From Prorocentrum cordatum (taxonomy: Eukaryota > Sar > Dinophyceae > Prorocentrales > Prorocentraceae): a stretch of DNA of 64,000 nucleotides. The translations under genes and the position numbers were made by a program. The notes under the pieces are model-generated. The model did no database searches, was not told the origin of the DNA, and worked only from the letters and a program-made list of their open reading frames with translations. The stretch covers positions 1,492,690-1,556,689 of the forward strand of contig CAUYUJ010017837.1 of assembly GCA_963575745.1 (NCBI GenBank), read 5' to 3'. Shown here one piece after another: positions 4,840 through 42,188 of this stretch; position 1 is the stretch's first letter; every line of letters starts with the position of its first letter.

Positions 4840-7800
4840 CTCTTCCTCATCCTCCTCCTCTTGCCCCTGCCCTACATGTTCTAACTTGGTTTGCATAATG
4901 TTTAAGCGGACGAACTGGTTCATGCCAGCGTCGCTCCTCCTATTGCTCCTCCTCCTCCTCCTCCTCCTACTCCTCCTCTTCCTCTCCCTCCTCCTCCTCC
5001 TCCTCCTCCTCCTCCTCCTCCTCCTCCTCCTCCTCCTCCTCTTCCTCCCCCTCCTCCTCCTCCTCCTCCCCGTCCCTCATCCCCCTCCCCCTCAGGAGGA
5101 GTTGCCAGATCGCGACATCGATAAGCAGTCCGAGGTCGGCCCCGAGGCGCACGCCACGATGGTCGAGTCGAGCAACGGCGCCATGGGCGCCTGGGACGAG
5201 GGCAGCGTCTCCGAGGCCGAGACGGTCCCATCCTCCATCCCAACGGAGCCGCCGGTGAAGAAGGCGAAGTCGCTGGCCGTGCCGCCGCGCCAGGCGCAGC
5301 CATCGGGACAGGCGATGCCAGCTGCCATGCCGCCGCCGCCCCCGCCCGTGGCGCCAGCCGCAGGCGCGCTCTTGCAAGACATGGCGCCGCCGCCGAGAGC
5401 GCGTGAGGCGCTGCCGCCCGCGGCGCCAGCCGCAGGCGCGCTCTTGCAAGACATGGCGCCGCCGAGCGCGTGCGAGGCGCTGCCCCCCGCGGCGACGGCG
5501 GGCCCCCCAGCCGCAGTCGCGGCGTCGCCGCCCATGACCCCTCCGAGTGGAGTCGGTGAGCCTTCGATCGCCCCGTCGACGTCGCATGGAGATGAGTCGG
5601 GCTTGGAGGATGCTGAGGCCAAGACCTTTGTAGGCGTGCCACGGCAGGCCGACGGGTCAGTCAGCCCAGAGGACCTCCAGCATGCTCTCGTGGAGGCCAA
5701 CAAGAGCCTGGGTGATGCGCGCAGGGCGGCCCTGTGGGGTCGCATGTCTCGCTTGACGAAGACCAGGTCCTGCCCCCCGCTCATCGCTGAGAAATGGGAG
5801 AACGCTGGCAACAACCGTTCGCTCAAGAACCGAGTGTTCGAACTCTTCCTCGCCTGCGGCGGCGAGGTAGGCAAGATGGAGATGGTTGAGCGCATCGTCA
5901 AGCGGGAGGTCGACGAGTACCACAACCAGAACAGCTGGTTCACCAAGGACGACCTGCTCATCAAGTACCATGATAAAACTAGCGTTGTGGAGCAGCTCAT
6001 TTGCCGGGTCGAGAAGGACAAGAAGCGCGTCCGAGAACATCCTGACTTCCCAGGGGATGCCAACATGAAGCAGTTCTTGTGCCATGATCACACGCACGTG
6101 AGCAGGGCCGAGCAACTCGAACGGACGAGGGGCATGCACTGGACGTCCTTGGTCGAGGGCGAGACGGCCATGAACATGGCGCGCACCATCGAGAAGTACT
6201 TCGATGTGCCCAACATCGAGGGGATCCCTGAGGCGACGGACAAGTCTAACAAGCCTGTCAAGCAGACCAAGGCCAAGGCCAAGGCGAAGAAGGCGTTCAA
6301 CCCGCAGGTGCACGCGCGGGAGTGGGGCCAGAAGGCGCTCGTGTGGTCAGGCTACTTGGCGGAGACGAACGCGAAGTTGATGGAGAAATGCAAGGAGCCT
6401 GCGCCCCTCCCCCTCAGTCTCCTCCTCCTCCTCCTCCTCCTCCTCCTCATCCTCCGCCTCAGTCTCCTCCTCCTCCTCCTCCTCCTCCTCCTCCTCCTCC
6501 TCCTCCTTCCCGCCCTCTTCCCCTCACGCTGCCGATGCCGCTGCCGCTGCTCCTACCCGACCCTCAGGACTGGTCTGGAGACCTCCGCCCGCTGATGACA
6601 GATGCCACTGCGAAGTTCCAACAGATTCAGACGCTCTTCCTGGAGCGGGCCGCCTCCCTGCCGACCGATGTGAAAAAGTCAGAGGATGGCGCGATCGTGG
6701 ACAATTTCGTTTCGAATCTCGCTGACCTGGTCTCCGAGTGCCCTGGGGGAACACTTGCCCTCGGGCGAATCGTTCGGCCCCGGATAGTTATCCCAGTGCG
6801 ACCCTACCTAGGAGTTGGACGCCCTAGGAAAGCAGCATTAGTAGTAACAGTAACGCTAAGCTAGAGCTAAGCTAAAGCTAAGCTAAAGCTAAGCCACAGC
6901 TAAGCTAAAGCTAAGCCACAACTAAGCTAAAGCTAAGCTAAAGCTAAGATAAAGCTAAGCTAAAGCTAATCTAAAGCTAAGCTAAAGCTAAGCTAAAGCT
7001 AAGCTAAATCTAAACTAACGCTAAGCTAAAGCTAAGCTAAAGCTGAGCAGCAGCTAAGCTACAGCTAAGCTACAGCTAAGCTAAAGCTAAGCTAAAGCTA
7101 AGCTAAAGCTAAGCTAAAACTAAGCTAAAGCTAAGCTCAAGCTAAGCTCAAGCTAAGCTAAAGCTAAGCTAAAGCTAAGTTAAAGCTAAGCTAACCGCTA
7201 AGCGAAACGCTAAGCGAAACGCTAAGCTAAAGCTAAGCTACAGCTCAGCTAAAGCTAAAGCTAAAGCTAAGCTAAAGCTAAAGCTAAAGCTCCCAGGGGA
7301 CTGGGGGAACCGCCCGGGGCGCTTTGCACTGCCGGGCCCCTTTAAGCTAAGAGAGTAAGAACCCTTCTAGGCAGAGCCTAGGTAGGGAATAAAGATACGG
7401 GGGGTAAGGAGGATGAGGATGATAGGGGTGATAAGGAACATTAGGTGGATAATGATGATAATCAGGATAAGGACTATAAGGAGGATGCTGACGATAATAC
7501 GGATAATGAGGATAGTGATAATCGCGAGGATACTGGCAAGGGAGGTAAGCACAATGATAACGAAGATAGAAAGGATAGGCCTAGTAGGTAGAACTAGGAA
7601 TATACAGACGATAATGAGGGTAATGATAAGGGTGGTAATGATAGTAATGATAAGGGTAGTGAGGGTTATGATATCGAGTACCATGATCAGGATCGAACGG
7701 TGATGATACTGATGATGTGGATAAGGAAGACAAACAGGATCAGGAGGATAAACCAGATACGTAAGATATGGGATATACTGAGGGCGTGGGAAAGTAGGCT

Positions 7801-14294: not shown

Positions 14295-17200
14295 TCCTGC
14301 GACCAACCTGGACGTCCCACACGGGCGGAGCACCTCGCCGATTCGCGCGCTGGACGCCTGCGCCGCCGCACAGCCGACCAGGCGCACACGCCGGGCCGCA
14401 GGGCCCCGCGTGACGACGACGACGCCGACGACGACGCTCGGCCGCCCGGCCTCGACGCCGACGGGGCCCCAGCGCAGACGCTCCTCAATCTTGACTGGTG
14501 GGACGGGGTGTCGTGCAACGACTTGGGGGTGGACGTCCGCGCCGTTGGGTCGGTCCCGGAGCCCCTCGCGCACTCCCTCGCCGTGCTCCGGGGGGCTGCC
14601 GCGACCGCCTTCCTCGACGCACAGCGGGCCGGAGACGCCGCTGCAGCTAGCAGGGCGGGCAAACTGCTGACTTTCTTCGACAGGGTCATCCTCTTCGCAC
14701 CGACCCGGGTCCGCGGAGGACGGAGCGCTAAGAACAGCGGCGGGCTCTCCAAAATCCTCGCGCGACGGATCCGCATAGCTTGGCGCGGCGACTGGGGGGC
14801 TCTGTGGCGCGAGGCGGCCGCCGCCGCCGCTGCTGGGGCTGGCGCAGCCGGTCGACGGCGCACTGGCCGACCGCAGGACACCGCGAAGAGCGTGGAGACC
14901 TTCCTGTCTGAGGGATTGGTATCCAAGGCCATGTCGTTGGTGACTCGCTCGGCCGCGGTGGTCACTGACGCCAGTGCTCACGGCGAGCTTCAGAACCTCT
15001 TCCCGCAGGGCGCGGGCGCCACCCCAACCGCAGCGCAGCTTCCCGACGACGAGACCACAGAAAAGCTCCTGCACGCGGTGCGCCAGGCCATCGAGCAAGC
15101 CCCGCGGAGGTCTGGCCCAGGCCCCAACGGCTCCCGTTTCGAGCACTGGAAGACTCCCCTTGCCGACTCCGCCGCGCTCGAGGCGAACTGCCGGGTGGCC
15201 GTGGCCTTCCTCCTCGGCGTCCCCCCCCCCGATTTCACGACGGCCAACTTGGGGGCCCGGCTAGTGGCGCTGCGGAAGAAAAACGGGAAATTGCGGCCGG
15301 TGGCATGCGGGGGCGTCCTCCGCAGGCTGGCGGCGAAGGCGGCTTGCGAGGTCTTCAAGGAGGAGCTGAAAGACGCCTGCGGCCCCCTCCAGTTCGCGGT
15401 CGGCACGAGGGCGGGCTGCGAGCGGGTCCACACAAGCGTCACCGCTCTGGCCGAAGCGATGCCGGGGGCCGCCGTCCTGGCTTTTGATGCTACTAATGCC
15501 TTCAATGCCCTGCCCCGGCAAACGGTGCTTGACGCAGTGGCCCGCCGGGCGCCGAGCCTCCTCCCGGTCGCCAACGCTTGGCTGACGAGGCCGACGACGC
15601 ACCTTTTCTGGGACGACCTCGGCACCCCCATGCCCGTGTCGGCCCAGACAGGCGTCGACCAGGGCTGCCCGCTCAGTCCCGCGTTCTTCGCCATTGGGAT
15701 CGCCGACGCCCTTGCCCGCGCCCGCGAGCGCCTGCAACTGCTGAGCCCCGTCTCCCGCCTTTTCTCCTACCTCGACGACGTGCTTATGGTCGCGCCAGCG
15801 GAGGCCGCCGCCCAGGCACACGACGTCGTGCGAGAAGAGATGGCCCGGGCCGGCTTGGAGCTCAACGCGGACAAGACCAAGGTATGGACCGCCAGCCCGG
15901 CCACTGCGATCCCTCCACAGCTCGCGCCGCTCCGGGCCGCCAACTTGACCGTCCTGGGGAACCCGGTCACGCGGTGCGACCGCGACGAGGACGACGACGA
16001 CGCCAGGCTGCCCCTTCTGGCCAGCTCCGACGGCCGAGAGGTCCTGGACAAAACGCGGCACTTCCTGGCCCACTGGAGAACGCTGCGCCAGAACGGGCTC
16101 TCGGCGGAAGGGGCGCACACGCTGCTCCGCACCTACGCCCAGGGCTACTGCACCCACCTGCTGCGCGCGAACTACGAGACCGCCCGGGTGGGGGAGCTCG
16201 ACGACTTGCTATTCGGGGCCTACGCCGAGCTAGCTGGGCCCTTGAGCAACGAGCAGAAGGAGTGGCTCACCCTCCGCCTCAAGGACGGCGGCAACGGCTT
16301 CCCCTCGGCCCGGGAGACCGCCGCCCGCGCCTACCTCGGAAGCTGGGCCTTCTGCTTTCGGGGCGTGGCAGGCTGCCTCGGAGCCACCTCGGCGGAGGCC
16401 GCCCGGGCGCGCTGCCCTCAGACGGCAGACGCTTGGCGCCGCGCCGAAGCGGAGCTCGACCGGCAGGAGGCGAAGGCCGAACCCTTGGATTGGGCAGCTC
16501 TCCTGGCTGAGCCCAAGGCCAAACAGCAGGGGTACTGGGGGAAGAGGACTTCCTTCGCCAAAAGAGCGCGGCTGCTCCGGACGCTAAACGAGGACGGCCA
16601 ACTCGCTCTGCGCGGCGCCGGAGGCCCAGGGGCGGGGGCCCGGTTCTTGCCTCGCGAGGAGGGCGACGCGCCCCTCCCAGACAACCACTTCCTGGCCAAC
16701 TTGCGCATGCGTCTTTCCTGCGACGCGTGTGCCCCGGGCTCGCGCTGCCAACGCCGGAAGCAGGACGGCTCGCTTTGCGGGGAAGCGCTGGATGCCAAGG
16801 GCTGGCACGCCCGGAAGTGCGGGTGCGGGGGCAGCAGGGACTACAGGCACAACTCCCTGCGCGACTGGAGCGGGCCTTGGCACTGCGCTCAGACGGGCCA
16901 CAGGGCCACGACCGAGCAGCGAGTCCCTGCTTGGGACCGCCAGCACCCTGACACCGGAGCTTGGGAGGAGGCTCTTCTCGACGTGGCCACGCGCGACCCC
17001 GCTACCAACGCCCCAATCTTTGTGGACTGGTCTGTCGCCTGCGAACACAGCAACAACAACGCTCGCAGGCAGGCCAGGGCTCGCACGGACGGGGTGGCGG
17101 CGGCTCAGGCAGTCGACAGAAAGCGGGCGCGCTACCCCCCGGCTGGAGGGGAACTCATCCCGGCCGTCTTGGAGACTGGGGGCCGGCCGGCGGACGAGCT

Positions 17201-34850: not shown

Positions 34851-35492
34851 CTCCTTCCTGCTTCGAGCCTCCTTCCTCCTCCCCCCCCCCCCTCGGCTGG
34901 GCGGTCGGCCCCGGCGCTCGCGGATGTCGCCGCGGATGTCCGTGTCGTCGGCCACGGCCGTCCTCGGATGGCAAGGACTCTGCGGCTGCTCTTCCTGCTG
35001 CTGCTCCTCTCCTAATCCTTATCCTCGTCGTGTCTTCCTCTTCCCCCTCCTCCTTCTTCCCCTCCGCCTCCCTCTCCTCCTCCTCCTGCTCCTCCTGCTC
35101 CTGCTTTTCCTCCTCCTCCTGTTTCTCCTCCTCCTCCTCCTCCTAGCCTTCACCTCCTGCTCCTTCTCCTCCTGCTCCTCCTCCTCCTCCTTTTGTTACT
35201 GTTCCTCCTCTCCTCCTCCTCCTCCTCCCGAGTGTCCTGGCGGCCCCCGGTGGCGCCATCGCGCGCCGCCCGCTGAGGCGGAGGCGCAAAGCCTGTCACC
35301 CTCGAGCCAATCGGTGGCGGGTCGCGGGCGGCCGCGCGTCATCGGTCTTCCACTGCCCCTTTTTCCCCCCTCTCCTTTTTCCTCATCATTCACGCGGCTC
35401 CCGCACGAATCATCCTCACAATTCTACGTTTAACGTCATGCTATCATAATATCATATATTTTAGCATTACCCATAAATTAAAGGCTGGGCGT
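34851..35492. repeat. Spacer with CTC tract, then AT-rich segment
   Basis: CTC/TCCTGC repeats at 35030-35232. After a GC-rich unique part, 35400-35492 is AT-rich and lies just 3' of the minus-strand Ala-rich ORF, as a 3' untranslated region would. Confidence 0.65.
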
Positions 35493-35936
35493 TTAATTTA
35501 ATGGAGATTGCACCTCTGGGCTCTCGAGCCCAGGTTCGGCCGCCGCTGCGGCGGCGGCAGCGCCGACGGCGGAGGCAGCGGCGGCGGCGGCACCGGCGCG
35601 CGCGGCCGTGGGCCCCAGCGCGGCAGCCCCAGCCACGGCGGCCGCGGCGCCAGCCGCGCAGACGGCGGCAGCGGCGGAGGCAGCGCCTGCGGCGGCCGCG
35701 GCAGCCGCCGCGCTGGCGGGCACGCCGGGAGGCGCCGCGGCGGCGCCGGCGGCGCCAACGGCCCACGCGGCGCCAGCAGCGTCGCCGGCGGCAGCCGCAG
35801 CGCGGGCGGCGCCAGCGGCGCCAGCACTGGCGGCGCTGGCCACGCCAGGAGCGGCCGCGGGGCGGGCGGCGCCCGCGACGCGAGCCGCCCAGGCGGCCGC
35901 CCGCTCCCGCGGGCGTCGCGCCGCGGCAGACTCCAT
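35493..35936 (-). CDS. Alanine-rich intronless ORF behind a relic spliced leader
   Basis: ATG at 35936 to TAA at 35495-35493 gives 147 residues beginning MESAAARRPRERAAAWAARV. Most of the protein is Ala with Gly, Pro and Val, and it ends LESPEVQSPLN. Starting about 80 bases upstream is a double relic spliced leader (36051-36016), so the locus has the hallmarks of a gene copied back from a mature mRNA. The plus strand is also open here because of GCC/GGC content, so coding status rests mainly on the spliced leader and the following AT-rich segment. No domain; no function assigned. Confidence 0.45.
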   Translation of the reverse strand: MESAAARRPRERAAAWAARVAGAARPAAAPGVASAASAGAAGAARAAAAAGDAAGAAWAVGAAGAAAAPPGVPASAAAAAAAAGAASAAAAVCAAGAAAAVAGAAALGPTAARAGAAAAAASAVGAAAAAAAAEPGLESPEVQSPLN

Positions 35937-36015
35937 CGGCGCCGGGCGGGCCCGCACCTGGCCAGGGGCGTGCTCGACCGTTGCCCCTGGAGGGAGGAAC
36001 ACCCTCGGGAAACGG

Positions 36016-36051
36016 CTTGAGTCAAAGGGGCTTGAGCCAAAAGGCTACGGA
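36016..36051 (-). promoter_or_regulatory. Double relic dinoflagellate spliced-leader sequence
   Basis: Minus-strand 36050-36031 reads CCGTAGCCTTTTGGCTCAAG. The canonical dinoflagellate leader has one additional A after CCGTAGCC and is otherwise identical. It is followed at once by CCCCTTTGACTCAAG (36030-36016), a diverged second copy of the leader's 3' part. Tandem relic leaders are the known signature of trans-spliced mRNAs that were reverse-transcribed and reinserted. Confidence 0.85.
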
Positions 36052-36300
36052 GGCTGGAGGGGATACGCGAAGCGTCAAGAGTTTCCTAGGTCGTGGGCTC
36101 TGCCGCTCCAGACGCCCCCAGCTTGGCCTCCAAGACGGCTGAGATATGCCTGTTGCGCGACTTCTGGATGTCGATGCCGCGAGGCGGGGCAGCAACGCGC
36201 GGCTGGCCGCGAGAAGGGGGGTGGTCCGTGCAGTCGACCGCCAGGTCGCCAGGGTGCCTCGGCCAGCCGCTAAAAGTGGTTCGGCGCGGCACGGCGGGGC
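36052..36300. other. Unassigned GC-rich segment
   Basis: Frames are open on both strands: plus ARLLDVDAARRGSNARLAAR, minus RNRHISAVLEAKLGASGAAE. The two cannot be separated by eye. Confidence 0.35.
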
Positions 36301-36735
36301 TCCCCTCCTCCTTTTCCTCCTCCTCCTCCTCCTCCTCCTCCTCCTCCTCCTCTTCCTCCTTTTCCTCCTCTTCCTCCTGCTCCTCCTCCTGCTCCTCCTC
36401 CTCCTTTTCCTCCTCCTCCTCTTCTTCTTATTCTTCTTCTTATTATTATTATTCTTATTCTTTTTATCATTATTAATATGATGATGATGATTAGTATTGT
36501 TACTATTCTTATGATTAGTATTATTATTCGTGCTCCTCCTCCTCCTCCTCCTCCTCCTCCTCTTCCCTCCTCCTCCTCCTCCTGCTCCTCCTGCTCTTGC
36601 TCCTGCTCCTCCTCCTCCTCCTCCTCCTCCTCTTCCTCCTCTTCCTCACCTTCCCCCTCCTCTTCTCCTCCTCCTCCTCCTCTCCGCCTCTTACTATTAT
36701 TATATACCTCCTCCTCCTCCTCCCCATACCACCGC
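36301..36735. repeat. CTC arrays flanking an AT-rich triplet segment
   Basis: CTC at 36305-36420, TTA/TTC triplets at 36421-36530, CTC again at 36531-36725. The AT-rich part looks like mutated versions of the same triplets. Confidence 0.9.
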
Positions 36736-38125: not shown

Positions 38126-38375
38126 ATGCACAATCCAAGGGCACGATGCCGAGATGGGCTCAGGGCAACTAGAAGCTAGATAATGGTACGCAATACCTCG
38201 CGATTGCGGGTGCGAGCGGGGGGGGCCGGCGCTGGGTGGGTCGCAGGTGGGTCGAGGGTGGGTGGGTCGCGGGTGGGTCACGGGTGGGTTGCGGGGTGGG
38301 TCGCCGAGTAGGTCGCGGGTGGGTCGCGTGCGGGGCGCTAGCGAGGACGACAACAAGGACAACACCAACAGCACC
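38126..38375. repeat. GGTCGCGGGTGG minisatellite
   Basis: Units of about 11-13 bases, GGTGGGTCGCGG, from 38228 to 38335, preceded by unique sequence. Confidence 0.85.
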
Positions 38376-38490
38376 AATCATTCTAAGACTGTTCGCTCTT
38401 ACTTGCCCGCGTGTCGTTCAAAACGAGTTCCCCACACCCTCGATACCCGCCCTGTTTGTCTTCGATCACACCCCCTTTGTGGGGATTGTT
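38376..38490. repeat. Module M, copy 1
   Basis: Landmarks in order: AATCATTCTAAGACTGTTCG, CCTCGATACCCGCC, GTCTTCGATC, and a hairpin CCCC-CTTTGT-GGGG at 38471-38484. See copies at 39.62, 40.46 and 41.86 kb. Confidence 0.85.
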
Positions 38491-38939
38491 TCTTTTTGCG
38501 GGGGGCGGCGGGCTTAGACAGGCGGGCAAACCTGCACGGGCGGCCAATCCTCCGTGGGCATACATGCGCCCGCCATTGGAATTGGTGTGGGCCCTGCAGA
38601 AAGAGGAGGAGGATAACGAGGGGAGCGGGAGGAAAGGAGGGGGAGGGACGAAGGAAGAGGGAAAACGACGGGAGATAAGGAGCGAAGAGGGGGGCGGTTG
38701 ATTAGAGGCAGAGAGAAAGAGAGAGACAGATAATGACAGATAAGAGGGGTAGAGAAAGAGAGAGGGGGAGAGAGAGAGAGAGAGGGGAGAAAGAGAGAGA
38801 AAGAGGGAGGGAGGAGGCAGGAGAGGGGAGGGAGAAGGGAGGACGAGGAGGGAGAGGGGATAGGGCAGAGAGGCATAAGGATGAGGGAAGAGAGGAGGGA
38901 GAGAGAAGGGAGGAGAGGAGGGAGAAGGGAGGAGGGAGG
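38491..38939. repeat. GC-rich spacer and GA-rich tract
   Basis: Unique to about 38595, then GAGGAG, GAGAGAGA and GGAGGGAG words to 38939. Confidence 0.8.
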
Positions 38940-39216
38940 AGGAGCAGGAAGGTAAGAGCGTGAACGTTCGAGGAAGTCCTAGGCGAAAGCGCCGTTCCAC
39001 AAGGAAGCCTCGGGCGGCAGCCCACGACGGGCGGGCGATTCCCTGACGGGCGGGTCGGGCGGGTGGGACATTCAAGCGGGATGCCTGAGTATGGCGAGAG
39101 CGCGATTACTATGTAAATTGTAGCGGCGTCCTTGGCGCAGCGTGTTTCCTGAGCGTCGAAAGCGCGATTTCTGAATACATTGCATGGGAGTCACAGGCGA
39201 GAGCACAATTCCTGAA
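38940..39216. repeat. Duplicated segment D, copy 1
   Basis: From GGAGCAGG through GAACGTTCGA, GCGGCAGCCCACGACGGGCG and GGGACATTCAAGCGGGATGC to GCACAATTCCTGAA. It matches 42834-43109 in the same orientation across the whole length. Confidence 0.85.
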
Positions 39217-39466
39217 TAACATGTGAAGGGTTCTCTGGCGGGAGCGGGGGTCTTGATGAAATTGCGAGGGAGTCTTGATTCAATTGCGAGGAAGTCTCAA
39301 GCGGGAGAGCCGTTCCTGAGTAAATTGTGAGGAAGTCTCAGATGGGAGCGGGGGTCCTGACAAAATTGTGAAGATGTCACAGGCGGGAGCACCGATCCTG
39401 AGTAAATTGTGAAGAAGTCTCAAGAGCGGGGGTCCTGAGTAAATCTGGAGGAAGTCTCAGGCGGGA
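39217..39466. repeat. Minisatellite, unit like AAATTGTGAGGAAGTCTCA
   Basis: Imperfect units of about 40 bases, with AAATTGTGAGGAAGTCTCA followed by GCGGGAGCGCCGTTCCTGAG. Confidence 0.85.
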
Positions 39467-39610
39467 GCCGTTGTTGTTGTAATCCGGAGGGGCCAGGGGT
39501 TCAGTTTGAGCACCAAGACTTTCCCTGTCAAAAAACAGGGTGCGGGCGTCGAGGGGCACACTTTGACTGAGAAAAAGCAGCATGCACCGGTGAGGGGGGA
39601 TCAACAATAA
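39467..39610. repeat. Module N, copy 1
   Basis: GCCGTTGTTGTTGTA, then hairpin 1 CCCTGT-CAAAAA-ACAGGG (39523-39540), then GTGC...GCAC (39540-39559), then CTTTGACTGAGAAA and TGCACCGGTGAGGGGGGATC. It directly precedes module M copy 2. Confidence 0.85.
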
Positions 39611-39620
39611 GTGAGCATTC

Positions 39621-39740
39621 AATCATTTGAAGACTGTTCGCTCTCACTGGCACGCATGTTTGCACTCTGCAGACCCCACCCCTCGATACCCGCCCATTTC
39701 GTCTTCGATCGCACCCCCTGTCGGGGGGAATATCTTCCTG
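39621..39740. repeat. Module M, copy 2
   Basis: AATCATTTGAAGACTGTTCG, CCTCGATACCCGCC, GTCTTCGATCG and hairpin CCCCC-TGTC-GGGGG (39714-39727). Confidence 0.85.
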
Positions 39741-40455
39741 GTCGGCCACTGACCGCAGCGCGAAGAACTCTCGAACGAGTTCGACGTTCCTGAAATCGGG
39801 GGCCTCTCTGGCCAGGAGAGGGGCTCTCGGAATACATATTGAGAAATATCGAACGGGAACCTTTGTCGCCGTGTCTGGGCCTCCGCCAACTTGCCTGAAT
39901 TACGAGAAAGGCTTGAGCGAGAGGAGAGCGCCACTCTTGAGTTCGGGGGCCTCTCTGGCAAAGGCCTCTGCGAATACATCTCGAGGAAATATCGAACGGG
40001 AGCCCTTGTCGTAGTGTGTCGGCCTCCACCAAGTTGACTGAATCATGAGAACGTCTCGAGCGACAGCGCCGTTCCTGAATTCGGGGGCCTTCCTGGACAG
40101 GGGCTCTCGGAGTAAATCGTGAGGAAGTATGGAGCAGGAGCCCTTGTCGTCGTGGCAGGGCCCCCCCGATTTGACTGAATTGCAAGGAAGTCTCGAGCGA
40201 GAGCACCTTTCCTGAGTTCGGGGACCTCTCTGGCAAGGGTGTCTCGGGGTAAATTGTGAGGAAATATCGAGCGGGAGCCGTTGTCGTCGTAGCTGGGCCT
40301 CCAAGGGCCCACATTTACGCTCAAGCCAACGCTCGAGCGAGAGCCTCGTTTTCAGAGAAGATGTAGCCGGCGTCGAAGCGAGAGCGCCTGGAATCGTTTC
40401 CGGATGCCCACAATAATTATTGCCTCGCGTGAATATTCAACAACAGCAACAAACA
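39741..40455. repeat. Minisatellite block, unit ending GAATTCGGGGGCCTCTCTGG
   Basis: Longer units of about 130 bases containing GTTCCTGAATTCGGGGGCCT, a GGGGCTCTCGGAATAAAT-like phrase and GGGAGCCCTTGTCGTCGTGG, at least four degenerate copies between 39790 and 40320. Confidence 0.75.
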
Positions 40456-40458
40456 AAC

Positions 40459-40580
40459 AATCATTTTAAGACTGTTCGCTCCAATCTGCCCACGTGCTAA
40501 TCAATACGTGTATCCCAAACCCTCGATACCCGCCTTCGTCGTCTTCGATCGTGCCCCCTTGGGGGTATATCTTCCTTACC
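40459..40580. repeat. Module M, copy 3
   Basis: AATCATTTTAAGACTGTTCG, CCTCGATACCCGCC, GTCTTCGATCG and hairpin CCCCC-TT-GGGGG (40554-40565). Confidence 0.85.
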
Positions 40581-41681
40581 TGCCACGTGTATTCAATGCA
40601 GCCCCTAAAACAATGGAAGAGGGGACGGGTGGAAGGGGAGGAAGAATAATGGAGCACGACAGAAATTAGCAGGAGGGGGGCAAGGAGCAGAAAACAAGTG
40701 GCATTACCAGACGGGCAAATCGGGTGGACAGACCCATAGCGGGCAGGTCGGGAAGGCGGGCTCAAGCGACGAGGTCGAGCAGGCGGGTTGCTGAAGCGTG
40801 GGTCCTGCGTGAATCGCGAGAAAATCTCGAGCGATAGCGCGATTCCTAAGTAAATCGTGAGAAAAGCCAGCGTGGGCCACGAAAGGCAGAAAGTCCGAGG
40901 CCACCGAGGGCAGCGACGGGGCCGTTGAGGGCAGCACCGGGGCCACGAAACGCAGCGAGGGGGCCACAAAGGGCGACAGCGGGGCCACCAAGGGAATGCA
41001 TATGGGGCCACGACGGGCGCGAGCGAGCGGGGGCCACGAAGGGCATTCGTACACGGGGCCACAAAGGGCGACAGCGGGGCCACTGAGGGCAGCAAAGGGG
41101 CCACGAAGGGCAGCGCGGGGGCCACGAAGGGCGACAGCGGGGCGACGAAGGGCATGCGTATGGGGCCACGACGGGCGAGTGCGAGCGGGGGCAACGAAGG
41201 GCATATAATGCGGGGCCACAAAACGACATCGACGGAGCCACTGAAGGCAGCAACGGGGCCACGAAGGGCAGCGAACGAAGGCGGCCCCGGAACCAGTACG
41301 GGCAGCGAGGGGCATCAAAGGCGGGCGAAGGGCAGCGAGCAGCGACTGCAATCATTAATGGGCTGGTCGGGCGGGCAGGCCCCGACGGGCGGGTCGAGCG
41401 GGCGGGTCGTTGAAGCGTGAGTCCTGCTTGAACCACCAGGCAATATGTAGCGGGAGCGCAACTCCTGAATGTCGAGGACCGGCATCTGAATAAATTGTGA
41501 AGAAATATCAAGCTAAGCGGTTCGGTGGTAACTTGCGAGGAAATCCCAAACGAGAACGCGATTCTGCAATACATTGTCAAGAAAGATCAAGCGGGAGCCG
41601 CGATTCGGTGGTAACTTGGCAGGAGGTCCCAAGCGAGAGCACGATTCTTGAATAAATTGTGAGGAAGTATCAGACGGGAAC
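40581..41681. repeat. GGGCCACGAAGGGC minisatellite and related units
   Basis: At 40875-41340 a GGGGCCACGAAGGGCAGCG unit of about 18-30 bases repeats some 20 times. At 41410-41680 AAATTGTGAGGAA-type units return. Confidence 0.85.
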
Positions 41682-41819
41682 TGCGGTTGTTGTACACCAG
41701 GGGCAAACCACATAGTTTAAGCCTCCAGATTTTTTCTGATATAACACACGGTGCAAGCCCGGGGAGGGGCACTTCAATCGAACAAATACAATGTGCACCG
41801 GGCGGGGGGATCAACAATG
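41682..41819. repeat. Module N, copy 2 (diverged)
   Basis: GCGGTTGTTGTACACCAGGG, a decayed hairpin 1, an intact GTGC...GCAC stem at 41751-41772, and GTGCACCGGGCGGGGGGATC. It precedes module M copy 4 by about 40 bases. Confidence 0.8.
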
Positions 41820-41860
41820 ATCATCCTTCATAAATGAACTGATTCAACAACAGCAACAAC

Positions 41861-41980
41861 AATCATTCCAAGACTGTTCGCTCCTACCGACCCGCGTGTC
41901 ATTCACTACGCATATCCCAAAGCCTGGATACCCGCCCTCTTTGTCTTCGATCGTACCCCAATTTGGGGGGTTATATTCCT
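41861..41980. repeat. Module M, copy 4
   Basis: AATCATTCCAAGACTGTTCG, CTGGATACCCGCC, GTCTTCGATCG and the perfect hairpin CCCCAATTTGGGG (41956-41968). Confidence 0.85.
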
Positions 41981-42188
41981 TCCTGGCCACGTGTAATTGG
42001 AGAAGCCCCTAAACAGGGTAACGAAAGGGACAGGACAAAAAGGACGAAGGGATCGGAGTGAGGGAAGGATTAGAGGGGAGGGCCGATGATCTGGGGCCTG
42101 AGTGGGCGCGTTCGGGGCCTCTGTGGGCTGCGGCAGGGGCCTCTGTGGGCAGCGTGGCGGGGCCACGCTGGGCGCGTCTGAGGCGATA
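41981..42188. repeat. Spacer and start of the GGGGCCTCTGTGGGC minisatellite
   Basis: GGGGCCTCTGTGGGCAGCG units begin at about 42090. Confidence 0.75.

Follow-up and report, generated by a model that had tools for sequence, protein, structure and literature searches.

How did a decayed spliced leader come to stand in front of an alanine-rich open frame in the genome of Prorocentrum cordatum, and what does it say about the way in which this sequence reached its present position? The preliminary description of the locus read it as the reinserted mRNA of a gene. We analysed the locus within the window, by which we mean the whole stretch of 64,000 nucleotides, and searched the assembly from which it comes (4,128,499,153 bases in 21,875 contigs). 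The features on which the argument turns are the following.

36054..36076, minus strand: GACGCTTCGCGTATCCCCTCCAG, the left block of the host repeat, differing from the 23-mer at one position
36054..36066, minus strand: 13-nt insertion target, here GTATCCCCTCCAG; a second copy occurs in relatives, and none in the window
36051..36053, minus strand: spacer CCT from target to leader, its T fitting the D position of the leader
36031..36050, minus strand: outer relic leader, 20 of the 21 nt of DinoSL, one A deleted
36016..36030, minus strand: tail of the inner relic leader, precisely 15 nt long and 3 mismatches away from CCATTTTGGCTCAAG
35937..36015, minus strand: 79-nt stretch from leader to ATG, common to the family copies
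35493..35936, minus strand: ATG-started open frame, 147 aa, 81 of them Ala, ending in flanking DNA at 35493-35536
35537..35936, minus strand: part of the Ala-rich frame homologous to family copies, its ATG aligned in 11 of the 12 compared

Read along the minus strand, the locus runs GACGCTTCGCGTATCCCCTCCAG, CCT, CCGTAGCCTTTTGGCTCAAG, CCCCTTTGACTCAAG, CCGTTTCCC. The outer unit at 36050-36031, CCGTAGCCTTTTGGCTCAAG, differs from DinoSL, CCGTAGCCATTTTGGCTCAAG, by a single deletion, and the T at 36051 before it occupies the leader's D position. The inner unit at 36030-36016, CCCCTTTGACTCAAG, abuts the outer one with a gap of 0 nt and is identical to the known relic CCATTTTGGCTCAAG at 12 of 15 positions. 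As described in the accessible text of PMC12014239 and PMC3229502, this 15-mer is a published relic, produced when the AG of an old leader accepts a new one and the first seven nucleotides of the old leader are lost. The window copy thus carries what marks a DinoSL-tagged retrocopy, namely a DinoSL relic heading the copied sequence at its 5' end and, at 36016-36030, an abutting inner relic of 15 nt cut after nucleotide 7. The initial claims of a leader short of one A and of a second, diverged leader tail following at once are both borne out, and the leader together with a relic truncated at AG supports the proposed origin by trans-splicing, that is, from RNA.

Leader-like sequences at the frequency expected by chance, which would have undermined the preliminary description, were looked for and not seen. 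The next-best leader match in the window lies at edit distance 5. Simulated windows (450 in all, 150 for each of Markov order 1, 3 and 5) never came closer than distance 3, nor did any of 500 letter-permuted leaders when placed against the real window. On both strands, 7 of 127,972 positions are no more than three mismatches away from the 15-mer, and the two relics are among the seven. The exact DinoSL 21-mer occurs 14,218 times genome-wide, against 0 for its reversed control. These simulations, permutations and counts reject a chance origin. We also rejected an SL RNA gene, since each of the two units is followed by CC and the GT splice donor of such a gene is absent after either.

Behind the other leaders of four sampled relatives comes an innermost unit, either CCGCTCTGGCTCGAG-like or CCGCTTTGGCTCGAG, so that a third, much decayed relic within 35937..36015 of the window is possible. 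A 35-nt imperfect palindrome, its overlapping arms 77% complementary, spans the ATG and the stretch before it (35931-35992). A search of viral contigs for the window's exact leader pair (24-mer) and for an exact double relic gave no match. As a separate observation, a viral contig of 7,157 bases with a family-41 glycosyltransferase ORF (L001, IMGVR_UViG_3300045993_001077) bears two exact DinoSLs on the minus strand of its region 1936-2913, at 2746-2766 and 2893-2913. The first lies 46 nt before a 254-aa ORF whose only homologue is itself (1 match of 126 candidates); this contig may represent a host trans-spliced mRNA captured by a dinoflagellate virus.

The Ala-rich sequence is not alone in the genome. 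Queried with window positions 35400-36310, the assembly yielded at least 69 matches including the window itself (40 scored of 514 candidates), with homology among the copies starting up to about 30 nt before the leader and shared insert ends reading ...GACCAAAA. Judged by this homology, the window insert is a member of a large retroposed family and not a private copy of a single gene. Family homology to the window ends by 35537 among the matches listed. In longer relatives it runs on for kilobases, and this continuation was not found beside the window copy, which indicates that the window copy is broken at 35537 and, in turn, that the end of its open frame and the AT-rich segment behind it are flanking DNA. 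The AT-rich 3' segment, initially assigned to the insert, therefore falls outside the repeated unit. The window copy has lost its 3' part and shows no A-tail, second target copy or remaining host repeat; owing to the break, no target duplication is evident around its own leader.

What lies upstream of the leader is itself informative. The window leader stands behind GTATCCCC[A/T]CCAG, inside an abundant repeat whose 23-mer GACGCTTCGCGTATCCCCACCAG occurs, with at most one mismatch, at 16,521 sites genome-wide (reversed control, 0). We sampled 20 regions from the head of this list, containing 24 motif sites. At 22 of the 24 the motif continues as uninterrupted repeat without a leader (21 as CCC[A/G]TC..., one as CACATCC...); at L064 and L069 something other than uninterrupted repeat follows. 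Read at the level of sequence, the uninterrupted repeat appears as the empty state, and the leader-headed inserts as sitting after CCAG. Some host repeats end in GGGCTGGTGGG-ATT. One locus (L066, G000:C370:350098-351900) is a head-to-tail array of host repeats with units of roughly 460-570 bases, one ATT being shared between right and left ends. Elsewhere in the window, a different dispersed repeat lies on the plus strand at 38340-42010, with AAGACTGTTCGCTC and CCTCGATACCCGCC at about 38.36, 39.6, 40.44 and 41.85 kb.

Relatives of the window copy display the corresponding filled state. Among ten long loci fetched, five (L040, L042, L043, L046 and L047) have the complete pattern of an A-rich tail, a second copy of the 13-mer and then CCCATCC..., the rest of the repeat, and the right end of the repeat was reached behind the insert in L040, L046 and L047. 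In L048, A-tails with second target copies lie at 7102 and 9719, with other sequence after them, and no A-tailed second target copy was present in the stretch fetched for L041, L044, L045 and L049. Left and right target copies share their variants (CATCAG in L043, GAA- in L047, -TACCC- in L048). Over the six loci with both copies visible, L048 being entered by its copy at 7102, left and right differ at 9 of 78 positions, a mismatch count that 3 of 720 permutations reach. Some other inserts have the A-tail of another insert in front of them instead of the repeat (examples are L013, L015, L028, L042, L081, L088, L106-L108, L110 and L114), indicative of insertion in series. We considered whether the upstream block is a terminal inverted repeat and rejected it, the inverted pairs L054/L055 and L057/L058 sharing no flanking duplication by eye.

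We then characterized the junction between target and leader. The pattern GTATCCCCACCAG-N(0-4)-CCGTAGCC occurs at 302 sites (control, 0). The 100 of these that were listed show 25 kinds of spacer (T 22, CGT 17, TT 12, GT 9, CCT 7, others fewer), of which 86 end in T, the usual first leader base here; some listed sites may be mutual duplicates, as L089 and L112 are one insert on two contigs. With an exact leader, CCCCACCAG-N(0-4) gives 15 sites with 11 spacers (control, 0). Such variable spacers suggest independent joinings of full-length trans-spliced RNA, whereas copies multiplied as DNA would tend toward one spacer. Independent insertions at one target sequence, as made by site-specific retrotransposons, are thus found at the 302 sites and the 15 with an exact leader. 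Placement at the target is nonetheless a minority route, only 15 of the 14,218 exact leaders standing there.

Several further observations concern leaders at and away from the target. Exact leaders stand directly behind TCCTCCTCCT in 1,682 of 14,218 cases, and TCC-rich tracts precede six of the first eight exact-leader loci (L002-L009); TCCTCCTCCT and TCC tracts could be a second preferred landing sequence or a splice-acceptor pyrimidine tract under selection. L005 is a young two-leader copy, with an exact CCATTTTGGCTCAAG immediately behind an exact leader; it stands behind a TCC-rich tract and off the 13-nt target. At the target (L079-L098), leaders mostly differ in mid-leader, where ATTTT has often become CCTCT, TTT or shorter, while CCGTAG and TGGCTCAAG are kept and the outer leader is exact in 2 of 20. 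Leader variants, copying errors at hairpins or modified bases, and decay are candidate causes of these mid-leader changes.

The bodies behind the leaders are diverse. From the 302 sites we took 20 of the 23 at the head of the list, together with 13 exact-leader sites outside those. By blastn the 20 bodies form 13 groups under a rule that misses distant kinship, and seven (L082, L085, L086, L091, L092, L096 and L098) match the window family beyond the leader. Several Ala-rich frames begin with variants of one Arg-rich motif. Other inserts resemble host genes: L089 encodes a pentatricopeptide-repeat (PPR) protein (PF13041, 7.2e-13), and L097/L100 a 537-aa frame to which a P. cordatum protein is 83% identical over 98% of its length; a related insert has 15 protein matches, 6 of them annotated P. 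cordatum proteins. A third host-like insert, L083/L101, contains a frame open for about 340 aa, with no Pfam family in the part scanned. By these similarities, host-like genes among the inserts number at least two. No A-tailed second target copy lies within about 4 kb behind the three host-like inserts, and their 3' ends are on that account unproven.

One insert carries retrotransposon coding sequence. On contig C82 (L077), a truncated LINE, present as one copy, stands directly behind the same target, with a reverse transcriptase (PF00078, 1e-11) and an RNase-H-like domain (PF13456, 7.4e-5) above the Pfam curated cut-off and an endonuclease-like match (PF14529, 2.1e-4) below it. It was rejected as the family's own coding part, as tblastn found no match at E<=1e-5 in L040-L049. 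No endonuclease or reverse transcriptase of its own, as an autonomous LINE would carry, was found in the window copy, which ends within the Ala-rich frame.

Directly observed, then, are the leaders, the fixed target, the relatives' target duplication and A-tail, junctions that vary, arrays with 1 to 5 leaders, inserts of several kinds with host-like genes among them, and one LINE fragment at the same target. From the A-tail, the target duplication and the LINE copy on C82 we infer a LINE as the machine. Our main reading, to which we assign a probability of roughly 0.77, is that trans-spliced RNAs are written into the genome site-specifically, LINE-style and in repeated cycles, the window holding a 3'-truncated copy at GTATCCCCACCAG. 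In such a cycle, an inserted copy would be transcribed, and DinoSL would be trans-spliced to the RNA either at the AG inside the old leader, which would add a unit, or at the AG ending it, which would replace the old leader. A LINE-type reverse transcriptase with a site-specific endonuclease, possibly the C82 LINE or its kin, would then cut the target and copy the RNA from its A-tail; a few extra bases would be added where the leader end is joined to the target, and the target would be duplicated. Repetition of the cycle would make leader arrays a partial record of it, one inner leader standing for one cycle, and the window copy would formerly have had the same 3' junction as its relatives.

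As regards the count of cycles, the second leader may be the product of DNA slippage, or of double trans-splicing onto one RNA, and not of a second cycle. Over 21 sites (the 20 sampled and the window), a pattern rule gave one leader unit in 11, two in 4, three in 5 and five in 1; by eye, two leaders occur in 5 of 20 copies of the family alignment, for which 9 of 30 loci had been left out beforehand and L031 lacked an anchor. The three identical inner units of L096 are what slippage would produce, and over ten multi-leader sites the inner units are more decayed than the outer in five, less in three and equal in two, with no significant gradient. Against an origin in a single cycle, L088 and L089 both have an exact outer leader and changed inner units, the 0, 1 and 2 changes in L089 being what repeated rounds predict, and in the window the inner unit, of exactly 15 nt, carries 3 mismatches, compared with one deletion in the outer. 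We regard slippage or double trans-splicing as rather unlikely. The two rounds initially proposed for the window are the likelier reading of a full leader followed by a truncated one, which is what two rounds would leave, yet they are not proven, given the three identical units of L096.

A leader might also have joined a transposable unit only once, the unit and its 23-nt block being multiplied as DNA thereafter. Such amplification would fit the start of copy homology about 30 nt before the leader and a host repeat with conserved ends and tandem units, and the identical L089/L112 insert on two contigs may indeed be a DNA duplication. The same block, however, precedes unrelated bodies and uninterrupted repeat alike, the spacers vary, and the second target copies have matching variants, all of which makes DNA-level amplification improbable.

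We next weighed the original proposal, in which the trans-spliced mRNA of one host gene was reverse-transcribed and reinserted as a private intronless retrogene. The leader plus truncated leader fits retrogene relics, as does the distance of 79 nt between the inner relic and the ATG at 35936, which falls in the zone from -50 to -100 that the accessible text of PMC6050394 gives for retrogene relicts. The ATG-started Ala-rich ORF that had been pointed out is present, but its length is what composition leads one to expect: an ATG frame as long arose on one strand in 28.5% of 1000 simulations, so that we rejected the open frame as evidence for a gene. Over its 444 nt, each of the six frames holds at most one stop. 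For the 147-aa frame, the scoring of 7989 candidates gave no protein homologue at E<=0.001, and no Pfam family was found; for ten window ORFs, nine had no Pfam match and one had three matches below the cut-off. Among relatives, 9 of the 11 with an aligned ATG (12 compared) continue M-x-x-A-A-A-R. Differences from the window copy at codon positions 1, 2 and 3 number 173, 195 and 281 over the 12 relatives (chi-square 30.1, P 3e-7, which is optimistic because every comparison uses the same reference and gaps of a length not divisible by three occur in 12 of 12), whereas the two closest relatives give 17, 25 and 23, without third-position excess. The pattern across the family suggests that the Ala-rich frame was probably once under selection, while the window copy, compared with its closest kin, looks neutral. 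With a large multicopy family at one fixed target in an abundant repeat and no protein homologue, the notion of a reinserted mRNA of one gene does not hold up, and a private retrogene is very improbable.

Finally, it is hardly credible that the block in front of the leader is kept by selection as a promoter or trans-splice acceptor: CCCCACCAG does end in a splice-acceptor-like AG directly before the leader, but the 16,521 sites are in our sample mostly without a leader behind them, and the block recurs behind inserts, with an A-tail before it.

DinoSL-tagged retrogenes of dinoflagellates were reportedly described by Slamovits and Keeling in 2008. DinoSL/DinoRL-tagged retrogenes are treated in PMC3229502, PMC12014239, PMC7789003, PMC10666404 and PMC6050394. 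The window copy shares with them the relic truncated at AG after nucleotide 7, the tandem relics and the origin from RNA; unlike them, its family sits at a fixed 13-nt target with duplication, the accessible portions of these papers naming no target for those retrogenes. The inserts here also belong mostly to multicopy families and not to annotated genes. Site-specific non-LTR retrotransposons, such as R1/R2, SLACS/CZAR and NeSL, take rRNA or SL RNA genes as their targets. Such elements are covered in the accessible text of PMC3636483 and PMC4640811. With them the present system shares a fixed target in repeated sequence, target duplication, an A-tail and serial insertions. It differs in that the target is an interspersed repeat, that inserts begin with a trans-spliced leader, and that no reverse transcriptase was seen in the short stretch read of most sampled inserts. 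In mammals, processed genes are mobilised by LINEs, host RNAs being copied in trans. Host RNAs would likewise be copied in trans here, but into a fixed 13-nt target and with a leader able to count rounds, and no 3' duplication was found in about 4 kb behind the host-gene inserts.

On the enzyme, LINE1 is mentioned in the available part of PMC12014239, a 2025 survey that there calls retrotransposons the likely mediators and is no more specific. The available part of PMC6050394 calls the type of element mediating reverse transcription in dinoflagellates unknown and favours LTR elements (Ty1/copia); in view of that preference, the LINE is what we infer for this system. Neither this target nor a leader-headed site-specific element in dinoflagellates turned up in the searched literature, which is thin in subscription papers and was accessible in part. 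What appears new is the placement rule suggested by the sequences, by which trans-spliced RNAs, host-like mRNAs included, enter one 13-nt target, with target-primed marks in relatives.

Leader-tagged retrogenes of dinoflagellates are already well known. A fixed target, a duplication, an A-tail and a co-located reverse-transcriptase element make it testable which enzyme acts, on which RNAs and how often, and at a single target, arrays holding 1 to 5 leaders would amount to a natural cycle counter. In its broadest form, which we consider evenly poised between true and false, the proposal is that the 13-nt site within a repeat of more than 16,000 copies is a dedicated landing pad, at which a site-specific LINE writes both retroposons and host mRNAs and the leaders count the cycles. 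If true, this landing pad would supply an enzyme class and an integration rule for at least part of the gene recycling of dinoflagellates.
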